From assembly GCA_021325515.1 (NCBI GenBank), contig JAJPHC010000045.1:1-64000 (forward strand): DNA of 64,000 nucleotides, written 5' to 3'. Positions 18,829 to 21,554 of this stretch are shown here, piece by piece. Each line of letters opens with the position of its first letter. Position 1 is the stretch's first letter. Source of the stretch: Acidobacteriota bacterium. Lineage in GTDB: Bacteria > Acidobacteriota > Thermoanaerobaculia > Gp7-AA8. The notes beneath the pieces were generated by a model. The model was not told where the DNA came from. It ran no database searches and saw nothing but the letters and a program-made list of their open reading frames with translations. The position numbers and the translations under genes were made by a program.

Positions 18829-20067
18829 CTAACGCGCGCGGCCGGTGAACAACACGGCTAACGATTCATTGCAGCCAAGCGCATCCTTCATCGCGAGCAG
18901 GCCGGCGAGGCCTGCGGAGCCGGTCGCGCTGACCGGCACGCCGAGCTCCCGGCCGTAGCGATTCGCCTCCGCGAGCTGCTCTTCCGTGACCACGACCGGC
19001 GAGCCGCCCGAATGCATCATGCCCCGCACGACCGCGACCCAGTCATACGTCTCGTCATCGAGAATGCCGTGCGCGATGCTCACCGGCGGCGTCTCCCACG
19101 GCCACATGAACTCCGCGCGATGTTGGATCGCATAGTCGAGATCACCCAGACGATTCCATGCGCGCGCGAGCGGCGACGCCTCGGTCTGCACCGCATGAAT
19201 GCGCGGCAGGCGATCGATGAGCCGCAGCGCGAGCGCGTTTTCGAACGCCGCGATGCACGCGCTGGCGAGTGCGCCGCCGCCGGTCTGGATGAAGAGGCGG
19301 TCGAGCGTTGCCCCGGATGACGAGAGCTGCGAGACCATTTCCCAGCCGAGCGTCTGGCCGCCTTCGATGACGAGGCCGTTCTCATTCCCCTGACATGTGA
19401 ACGGCAGCGCGCCCGCCGCGATCGCTTCCCGGAATCGAAGGTACGACGGATCGCCCGTTTCGCCCTGCCGGCGCGCGCATCGCGTGACGTGCGCGCCCAG
19501 TTCTTCGAGCCGCTCGACGACTGCTGCGGATGCATCCGCGGGTACGAAGACTTCCAGACGGCGTCGCGCAGCGCGCGCCACGACGGCCGCCGCGAGTGCC
19601 GCGTTTCCACAGCTCGCAATCGCGAGCGCGCGGTCGTCCCGATCGAACAGCTCGAGCCAGATCATCAGTCCCATGAGATGCCGGCCCTTGTGCGAGCCCG
19701 ACACGTTTCCGGTGTCGTCCTTGATCCACAACGCACCCTCGTGAAGCAGCGGCGTGACGTGGAATGACGTCTGGTCGATCTCGACGATCCGCTCTTCCAG
19801 CCGGCGGATGCACGCGATGTAGTCCGCATCGCGGATGCCCGAAAGCTGCGCGGTATTCCAGCTGTGCATCAGGCGGCGATAGCGGATGAAGGGATCGGGC
19901 TCGTCGTCGAAGAATGCTTCGCGCAATCCGGGGTGCGGTACGAGTTGCCGCCGCAGCACATGATCGGCCTCATCCGAACCTGCATGGGGGCAGCGAAAGG
20001 GACGCCGCTCGAGCGGCGGCGCGACGTAGCCGCAGCCACTGCACACCATCGATGTCGCTGCGCTCAT
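18829..20067 (-). CDS. PLP-dependent lyase, threonine synthase-like
   Basis: The 412-residue protein has an N-terminal Cys motif (CSGCGYVAPPLERRPFRCPH) like the zinc-ribbon-like start of threonine/cysteate synthases. It then has a fold-type II PLP domain: probable Schiff-base Lys in GNVSGSHKGRHLMG, an Asn loop in SCGNAALAAA and a phosphate loop TGGGALASA. The ATG is set by an ATGA overlap with the stop of the upstream PLP gene; a longer frame would be out-of-phase sequence. It is last in the xdhD-ssnA-PLP-PLP operon. In E. coli the PLP enzyme of the cluster is YgeX, 2,3-diaminopropionate ammonia-lyase; this protein is not obviously that family. The reaction may be beta elimination or replacement on an amino acid. 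Confidence 0.8.
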   Translation of the reverse strand: MSAATSMVCSGCGYVAPPLERRPFRCPHAGSDEADHVLRRQLVPHPGLREAFFDDEPDPFIRYRRLMHSWNTAQLSGIRDADYIACIRRLEERIVEIDQTSFHVTPLLHEGALWIKDDTGNVSGSHKGRHLMGLMIWLELFDRDDRALAIASCGNAALAAAVVARAARRRLEVFVPADASAAVVERLEELGAHVTRCARRQGETGDPSYLRFREAIAAGALPFTCQGNENGLVIEGGQTLGWEMVSQLSSSGATLDRLFIQTGGGALASACIAAFENALALRLIDRLPRIHAVQTEASPLARAWNRLGDLDYAIQHRAEFMWPWETPPVSIAHGILDDETYDWVAVVRGMMHSGGSPVVVTEEQLAEANRYGRELGVPVSATGSAGLAGLLAMKDALGCNESLAVLFTGRAR

Positions 20068-21554
20068 ACCGTCGTCAGGGCCGCTGCGGCATTCACCTCG
20101 GCGATCATCGCGTCCCACATCGGGACGACTTCGCGCAGGCCGCGCCAGAAGGACTGGCTCGCGCGCTCTTCGAAGTCCTCCAGAGGCACGCCCTGCTGCT
20201 CGACCCACGTGAAGTAGCCGAGATTGAAGATGCGCCGCCGATCGCGATGAGTGAGCTCGAGGAGATTTTCCGTCGAGACCGTCGCGAGGTGCCGGCCGAA
20301 GACGGACGCGGCCTCGACTGCGTCGAACTTCCCGCCGAATTCGGACGCGAGCGTCCGGGCCGCTTCGCTCGCGTACATCTCGGCGCCATCGGTCGCGACG
20401 GTGACGATCACGTCGGAGGAGCGCATGCCGTAGTACTTCGCCGTCTTGATCGCTGCGAGGATGTTGCAGATGGAGGAGATGCCGAAGTTTCCGAGTTGCT
20501 CGATGATCGCGTGCGGAATCGAGTGACGCGTCGCGAGGAGCTCACGGCCTGCGGCGGAGTTGAAGAGAACGTTGAGCGCGTCGGTGCTGCGGTCGGAGAC
20601 GGCTGCGACGACGTCGGTGTTCATCACGTTGTGGATCAGAGGGATGTGCTTGTCGCCGATGCCCTGGATGTTGTGCTCTCCGTAGCCGTTCTCCAGCATC
20701 GTCGGACACTCGAGCGCTTCGACGGCGACGGTGATGCTGCCGTAGTGGTCCTTGAGGAAATCGCCGGCTGCGATCGTTCCCGCTGATCCGGTCGCCGACA
20801 CGAAGGCGCGCAGCCGCAGCGATGCGTCACTTGCTGCGAGGCGCTCGAACGCAGATCGCAGCGCCGACCCCGTGCAGCGGTAGTGGACGACGTAGTTCGC
20901 ATACTCCCGGAACTGATTCAGGATCACGTTCGATGGGTCGCGTGACAGCGCCGCGCACGCATCGTAGATCTCCTTCACGTTGCTCTCCGTGCCGGGTGTG
21001 CGCACGATGTCGCCGGGGTCGGTGACCCAGTTCTCGAGCCAGCGGAATCGCTCCGCGCTCATGCCGGCCGGCAGAACTGCGACGCCATGACAGCCGAGAA
21101 TCCGCGAGATCGCGACGCCGCCGCGGCAGAAGTTCCCAGTCGACGGCCACACCGCGCGGTGCTTCGCCAGATCGAATTCGCCGCTGACGATCCGCGGCAC
21201 CAGACACGCGTAGGCGGCGAGCACTTTGTGCGCGCGGATCATCGGGAATCGATTGCCGAGGAGGACGACGATCTTCGCGTCGACACCGGTGAGCGAGGAA
21301 GGAAGCACGACGTGCTCGGGCACCGTGGCCAGGGCGCCGTCCGGCGTGTTGAACCAGTGGACGCGGAAGAGATTCAGCGGATGCGGAGCGCCGGAATCGA
21401 TCGATGGCAGAGCGGCCTTGACCTCCGCCGGAATCGCGTCGGGATTTTCGAGCTGATGGAACGCCGGCAGCGCCAAGCCGCGCTCACGCAGGTGGCTCAC
21501 GTTTCGATCGCGGACCGCGCCATCAACGATGCTGCTTTTCCATGGGAGAGACAT
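20064..21554 (-). CDS. PLP-dependent beta-subunit-like enzyme
   Basis: The 496-residue protein is a fold-type II PLP enzyme distantly like cysteine synthase. The probable PLP lysine is in [11 protein letters not shown], an Asn/Ser loop is in [14 protein letters not shown], and a Gly-rich loop is in [13 protein letters not shown]. It is about 170 residues longer than O-acetylserine sulfhydrylase, with an extended N-terminus ([12 protein letters not shown]) and C-terminus. AAGGAGTGAGCG just upstream supports the ATG even though the gene overlaps the end of ssnA by 32 bp. Two unlike PLP enzymes encoded back to back with an ATGA overlap suggest a heteromer or sequential steps. The substrate is unknown. 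Confidence 0.8.

Follow-up and report, generated by a model that had tools for sequence, protein, structure and literature searches.

A soil-type member of the Acidobacteriota carries a gene cluster for anaerobic uric acid degradation that encodes two vitamin-B6 (PLP) enzymes, PLP1 and PLP2, where that of E. coli has only one, YgeX. Judged by their sequences, both are intact fold-II PLP enzymes, and neither is YgeX. PLP1 appears to take the YgeX slot, with PLP2 as an additional component, and the cluster probably represents a pathway variant with one non-orthologous replacement and one further enzyme family. In our preferred reading, to which we give about an even chance, PLP1 and PLP2 are the terminal enzymes of this reductive uric-acid variant and act separately, PLP1 as the lyase and PLP2 just before it.

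The reductive uric-acid pathway was described in 2025 in gut bacteria, and the E. coli cluster comprises xdhD-ygfM, ygfK, ssnA, hyuA, ygeW, ygeY and ygeX (PMC12507026). In the canonical last step YgeX converts diaminopropionate into pyruvate and two NH3, and both isomers are used in E. coli. Two questions still open about the pathway are in which order the ureido groups are cleaved and what stereochemistry its C3 intermediates have (PMC12990295). In the literature searched we found no second PLP enzyme in urate clusters.

A reductive uric-acid gene cluster without YgeX

The window, i.e. the whole stretch of 64,000 nucleotides that was analysed, belongs to a genome of 5.38 Mb (63 contigs, 99.8% complete). 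At positions 14085-25058 it holds together the genes for XdhD, YgfK, SsnA, YgeW and YgeY, which constitute the reductive uric-acid gene set:

14085-15800, plus strand: YgfK-like reductase, short form (571 aa versus a model of 1012 positions)
15797-16939, plus strand: YgeW knotted carbamoyltransferase (best family match, below cut-off)
16933-18477, plus strand: YgeY-like M20 hydrolase, divergent (514 aa)
18829-20067, minus strand: PLP1, fold-II PLP enzyme of the threonine-synthase lineage, clade PLP1a (412 aa)
20064-20067, minus strand: ATGA overlap of PLP2 stop and PLP1 start
20064-21554, minus strand: PLP2, PLP enzyme of the cysteine-synthase lineage, extended at the N- and C-termini (496 aa)
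21523-22473, minus strand: short SsnA (316 aa; positions 62-321 of the 444 of the SsnA model aligned)
22470-25058, minus strand: XdhD-type molybdenum hydroxylase (TIGR03311, selenium-dependent xanthine dehydrogenase)

The minus-strand genes follow each other in the order xdhD, ssnA, PLP2, PLP1 with overlaps of ATGA, 32 nt (ssnA lying upstream of PLP2) and ATGA, and ygfK, ygeW and ygeY on the plus strand point toward them. The PLP2 frame runs from the ATG at 21554 to the TGA at 20064 and that of PLP1 from the ATG at 20067 to the stop at 18829; a 459-aa open reading frame results from a longer GTG start. The original prediction, made from the letters of the window, had described a threonine-synthase-like protein with an N-terminal Cys motif and a 496-residue cysteine-synthase-like protein, joined by an ATGA overlap and following ssnA. 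All of this is borne out: PLP1 has a CxxC...C stretch (CSGCG...FRCP) and matches threonine-synthase models, PLP2 has the position and length given, and the junction reads as described, with ssnA in its short form.

Among the cluster products only XdhD exceeds an equivalog cut-off (875.8 bits with TIGR03311, cut-off 830). YgfK, SsnA, YgeW and YgeY are divergent or short, and each matches its own family best with a score under the cut-off (YgeW, 352.7 bits versus an equivalog cut-off of 500). Since a HyuA homologue is encoded elsewhere in the genome (G000:C61:203245; 43% to E. coli HyuA), there is a candidate gene for every other pathway step. A homology search for DpaL/YgeX gave no match in the genome of the window or among its family. 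The assignment of the pair to a urate (diaminopropionate) cluster without YgeX is thus supported.

Compared with E. coli, XdhD, YgfK, SsnA, YgeW and YgeY are likewise encoded in the cluster, whereas HyuA lies outside it, YgeX is missing in favour of two other PLP enzymes, SsnA is short and YgfK lacks the NAD(P)H/FAD half. The YgfK-like protein retains the N-terminal part and the 4Fe-4S motifs of the E. coli protein without its C-terminal half, so another electron donor is likely, perhaps ferredoxin. SsnA has no N-terminal composite domain here. The 514-aa long form of YgeY is common to several Acidobacteriota families and leaves roughly the first 100 positions of the YgeY model unmatched.

Phylogeny and predicted structures of PLP1 and PLP2

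Both proteins score over the Pfam cut-off for PF00291, and all matches to more specific models stay below theirs. PLP1 reached 23.6 bits with the YgeX model PRK08206 (cut-off 276), 70.6 bits with the threonine-synthase model PRK08197 (cut-off 303) and 18.7 bits with TIGR00260 (threonine synthase; cut-off 167). PLP2 reached 77.6 bits with the cysK model (cut-off 351) and gave no match to PRK08206 at E<=0.01. In a tree of 51 proteins, including paralogues from the window's own genome, PLP1 belongs to the PLP1a group (100% support), which is nested in a 98% group with threonine-synthase-like proteins. PLP2 is placed in a 99% group adjoining CysK/CysM, and DpaL/YgeX sequences form a separate 99% clade without PLP1 and PLP2. 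Constraining PLP1 into the DpaL/YgeX clade was rejected (AU test, p=4e-10). By model scores and tree neither protein is YgeX, in keeping with the proposal that two unlike enzymes are encoded here.

Lys127 of PLP1 is the PLP lysine and aligns with YgeX Lys77, whereas Lys110 of PLP2 aligns with CysK Lys42; the GN loop of PLP2 (STGN) is intact. At the position of YgeX Asp120 (in TDGNHG) PLP1 has Cys153, the Cys of an SCGNAA motif that is invariant across PLP1a, and PLP2 has Thr139, as judged by its PSTGN loop. Other threonine-synthase-like slot enzymes mostly have Thr at this position. From the DAPAL literature we take Asp120 to serve D-diaminopropionate; its replacement by Cys suggests that PLP1 is L-specific.

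The AlphaFold2 models have mean pLDDT values of 93.5 (PLP1) and 92.0 (PLP2). The solved folds nearest to PLP1 are threonine synthase, serine racemase and threonine deaminase (~20% identity), and those nearest to PLP2 are cysteine synthase, cyanoalanine synthase and the CBS core (~24% identity); for both proteins together the closest solved structures range from 16 to 27% identity. With Foldseek the PLP2 model matched the cysteine-synthase-type fold at E 1e-13.

PLP1 and PLP2 share with YgeX (PRK08206, TIGR03528) the PF00291 fold-II type and the PLP lysine, and PLP1 presumably the pathway position as well, but they differ from it in clade and in the Asp120 residue. With threonine synthase (PRK08197, TIGR00260) PLP1 has in common the tree neighbourhood, the nearest solved folds and the N-terminal Cys stretch, yet its scores are far under the cut-offs and its lysine motif is another one (GSHKxRH together with SCGNAA in PLP1a, versus NPTxSxKDR/STGN). 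PLP2 resembles O-acetylserine sulfhydrylase, beta-cyanoalanine synthase and the CBS core in core fold, PLP lysine and GN loop. It departs from cysteine synthase in scores far under the cut-offs, in ~180 extra conserved end residues (N-terminal ~80 aa, C-terminal ~100 aa) and in having PSTGN instead of TSGNT. An identity of PLP2 with OrtB (2-amino-4-ketopentanoate thiolase) was ruled out, as NF040741 gave no match to PLP2 at E<=10 in its own genome.

Distribution in Acidobacteriota

The same 297 Acidobacteriota genomes were searched for all four proteins, yielding matches for PLP2 in 48, YgeW in 41, DpaL in 32 and PLP1 (PLP1a) in 5. PLP2 and YgeW occur together in 38 genomes, PLP2 without YgeW in 10, YgeW without PLP2 in 3 and neither in 246 (p=4e-35). 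Within ~10 kb of PLP2 there is at least one core urate gene at 41 of the 48 loci and at least two at 35. All five PLP1a genomes contain PLP2, and 43 of the 48 PLP2 genomes are without PLP1a. Other PLP2 clusters have PLP1b, a second threonine-synthase-like type, in the slot, or there is a true DpaL in the genome. A PLP1-type enzyme is present in the cluster in 26 of the 48 PLP2-bearing genomes, DpaL in the genome in 10, and both in none (p=1e-4, an indicative value, because the DpaL-bearing genomes fall into about four families and relatedness is not accounted for in the test). The original prediction had put both proteins in the YgeX slot. This is supported for PLP1, which never accompanies YgeX in the 48 genomes, but not for PLP2, which appears to be an extra component.

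YgeY was found in 42 of the 48 PLP2-bearing genomes, which rules out PLP2 as its substitute. An in-frame TGA in YgeW of some genomes, considered as a selenocysteine codon, is an ordinary terminal stop in the two that are readable.

Distribution beyond Acidobacteriota

A scan of GTDB contigs revealed at least 585 PLP2 relatives, the best 80 of which were examined; they come from Actinomycetota, Pseudomonadota, Myxococcota, Gemmatimonadota, Planctomycetota and others. At 40 of these 80 loci PLP2 is followed by PLP1a on the same strand. The gene ends lie within -30 to +40 nt of each other in 37 of the 40 pairs, and 13 have the identical 4-nt ATGA overlap. As homologous pairs recur in the same order and on the same strand at 40 of the best 80 of at least 585 related loci, the arrangement is not due to chance.

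From this wider set we chose 37 genomes with few or no urate genes at the PLP2 locus. YgeW is absent from 31 of them. SsnA is nevertheless present in 21 of the 22 PLP2-PLP1a pair genomes of that sample, 19 times in the short form and twice in full. Ten Alphaproteobacteria with PLP2 only (G323-G328, G330-G333) gave no short or full-scoring SsnA; two of them showed weak, generic full-length amidohydrolase matches only. An independent check used 148 genomes from a single actinobacterial order. Of these, 38 have both PLP1a and short SsnA, 2 have PLP1a alone, 16 short SsnA alone and 92 neither (p=4e-20), so that short SsnA is present in 38 of 40 PLP1a genomes. In Acidimicrobiia, Myxococcota and Proteobacteria, short SsnA and XdhD accompany the PLP2-PLP1 pair even where YgeW is missing. 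Culturable carriers of the pair include Pleomorphomonas sp. JP5 and Desertimonas flava. At the loci read, the short form of SsnA accompanies PLP1a, whereas PLP1b or DpaL is found with the full-length form; two of these loci are exceptions (L092, L116). The pair plus short SsnA is a usable marker for the variant. PLP1a and DpaL occur together in a few non-acidobacterial genomes (at L144, and in the genomes of L103, L098 and L109).

A conserved operon surrounds short SsnA at 20 loci (L180-L199, e.g. L184 and L190), mostly in genomes without YgeW. It contains short SsnA at 19 of the 20 loci, XdhD at 16, a carbon-nitrogen hydrolase at 15, an M20 allantoate-amidohydrolase-like protein at 14 and an F420-type luciferase-family reductase at 12; XdhABC, GuaD and HyuA are found near short SsnA in several. 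The arrangement suggests an alternative form of the pathway, where hydrolases would stand in for YgeW/YgeY and the F420 enzyme for YgfK. In Acidimicrobiia a reductive urate route of this F420, all-hydrolase type is probable. An F420 (luciferase-family) variant of the urate cluster has been noted for Chloroflexota (PMC12507026). The pair-bearing Acidimicrobiia resemble it in that an F420-type reductase accompanies XdhD-type or SsnA genes, but they belong to a different phylum, they have short SsnA with XdhD, and the M20 allantoate-amidohydrolase-like and carbon-nitrogen hydrolases replace YgeW/YgeY.

Concerning a link to an unrelated pathway, which would speak against the urate assignment, the SsnA counts (21 of 22 and 38 of 40 genomes) reveal none for the pair. 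For PLP2 alone there is such a link in part, in ectoine-like and CoA-transferase/F420 clusters of Alphaproteobacteria. In marine Alphaproteobacteria (L152, L160, L162-L166) PLP2 is flanked by EutB/EutC-like genes on one side and by M20/M24 hydrolase genes on the other, in an amine catabolic island that also has genes resembling proline racemase and sarcosine oxidase close by. In Rhizobiales and other Alphaproteobacteria (L124, L126, L127, L139, L150, L154, L167) the genes that come after PLP2 encode CoA-transferase A/B and a luciferase-family protein, and at several of these loci an Fe-S serine dehydratase and genes for F420 biosynthesis (CofGH/CofC) are present too. The annotated Alphaproteobacterial contexts do not converge on one substrate. 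Overall, the neighbours or partners of PLP2 include PLP1a, PLP1b, DpaL and EutB-like proteins, with the Fe-S serine dehydratase nearby.

Proposed roles of PLP1 and PLP2

According to the preferred model, XdhD would convert uric acid into yanthine, which YgfK or, elsewhere, an F420 reductase would reduce further. SsnA and HyuA may then open the rings, and both ureido groups would be removed by YgeW/YgeY or by hydrolases to give 2,3-diaminopropionate. PLP1, derived from threonine synthase, would finally cleave 2,3-diaminopropionate to pyruvate and ammonia. Because PLP1 excludes YgeX and the pathway is otherwise complete without YgeX, PLP1 is taken as the lyase, and we consider it somewhat probable that it is a diaminopropionate ammonia-lyase non-orthologous to YgeX, the substrate being deduced from gene context. 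PLP2 is constant whatever the lyase and stands beside beta-eliminating enzymes outside the urate setting (EutB-like, DpaL, serine dehydratase nearby), and for these reasons we place it just upstream of the lyase. Its substrate would be the same C3 diamino acid, either 2,3-diaminopropionate or its 3-ureido form albizziin, and it may supply the lyase with a usable L-configured substrate through inversion at C2 or through elimination or exchange of the 3-substituent. The two proteins would be co-produced by coupled translation and act as separate enzymes.

For the reaction of PLP2 we can offer a guess, in which inversion to the L form is the first choice, although a doubtful one, followed by beta-elimination or exchange at C3. 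In favour of inversion are the D-specificity of HyuA and the absence of Asp120 from PLP1, whereas the persistence of PLP2 with the D-active DpaL points away from it. PLP2 is kept beside DpaL, which in E. coli uses both isomers, and beside YgeY (42 of 48 genomes), so that there is no strict need in those genomes for either inversion or albizziin cleavage. If PLP2 does invert D to L, this would bear directly on the question of C3 stereochemistry. We tentatively entertain, as a possibility on the weaker side of even, that PLP2 represents a new family adding a step to uric-acid and perhaps other diamino-acid or ureido catabolism in environmental bacteria (e.g. stereo-inversion of D-diaminopropionate or albizziin ahead of an L-specific lyase), and that PLP1a is a diaminopropionate-lyase lineage with a catalytic cysteine.

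Alternatively, PLP2 could be the true diaminopropionate (or albizziin) lyase, with PLP1 performing an accessory step. PLP2 is the constant member (48 of the 297 genomes versus 5 for PLP1a), and its cysteine-synthase-like core is built for expulsion of a beta-substituent via aminoacrylate. However, DpaL is also present in 10 of the 48 PLP2-bearing Acidobacteriota genomes and in this set never accompanies PLP1-type enzymes, so that PLP2 as a lyase would be the redundant one; we regard this as unlikely. Slightly less likely still is that the pair serves general amino-acid catabolism (of serine/threonine or another diamino acid) with a loose tie to urate. The pair does stand among housekeeping genes in Acidimicrobiia, and PLP2 relatives occur in the EutB/EutC-M24-M20 and CoA-transferase/F420 clusters, but the same Acidimicrobiia encode XdhD and short SsnA at another place in their genomes, and within one order the distribution of PLP1a follows that of short SsnA.

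An obligate heteromer, with one active and one structural or regulatory subunit carrying out the YgeX reaction, would fit the conserved order and coupled translation (ATGA in 13 and -30 to +40 nt in 37 of the 40 pairs, among the best 80 of at least 585 relatives) and the presence of PLP2 in all five PLP1a genomes among 297 Acidobacteriota. Against this, PLP2 is without PLP1a in 43 of 48 genomes and at half of the best 80 of at least 585 related loci, and PLP lysine and GN loop are intact in both proteins. PLP2 is found with PLP1, with other threonine-synthase-like proteins, with YgeX/DpaL or with neither nearby, and this variety of unrelated partners indicates that PLP2 is an additional component that does not depend on a heteromer with PLP1; the heteromer suggested by the original prediction, taken as obligate, thus ranks as improbable, below the two preceding alternatives. 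That PLP1 is a biosynthetic threonine-synthase paralogue here by happenstance is very improbable: threonine synthase is its best curated match and it groups with two threonine-synthase-like proteins of its own genome, but it scores 70.6 bits against a cut-off of 303, its lysine motif and SCGNAA differ, and those two proteins are better threonine-synthase candidates.

On the evidence of the window, the last steps of the pathway are probably carried out by different enzymes in environmental bacteria of several phyla, which would also have an extra, near-constant PLP enzyme. The observation behind the original prediction is correct and more general than its reader knew, and its interpretation is half right. 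In the published map the YgeX slot is coloured by PF00291 and Acidobacteriota are not mentioned; consequently, counts of uricolytic bacteria based on YgeX need care. If PLP2 is a new family and PLP1a a new lyase lineage, such a survey would miss both, because YgeX is scored by PF00291 alone.

Other features of the window

Intergenic tracts at 18480-18828 and ~33100-33800 consist of repeated GC-rich motifs that give rise to spurious open reading frames on both strands. Divergent from xdhD, the stretch 25178-32391 on the plus strand encodes a second molybdenum-hydroxylase set, which comprises a 4-hydroxybenzoyl-CoA-reductase-like large subunit with Fe-S and FAD subunits. The same stretch includes a TPR gene, an XdhC-MocA fusion and a gene of HMGL/NifV-like type.
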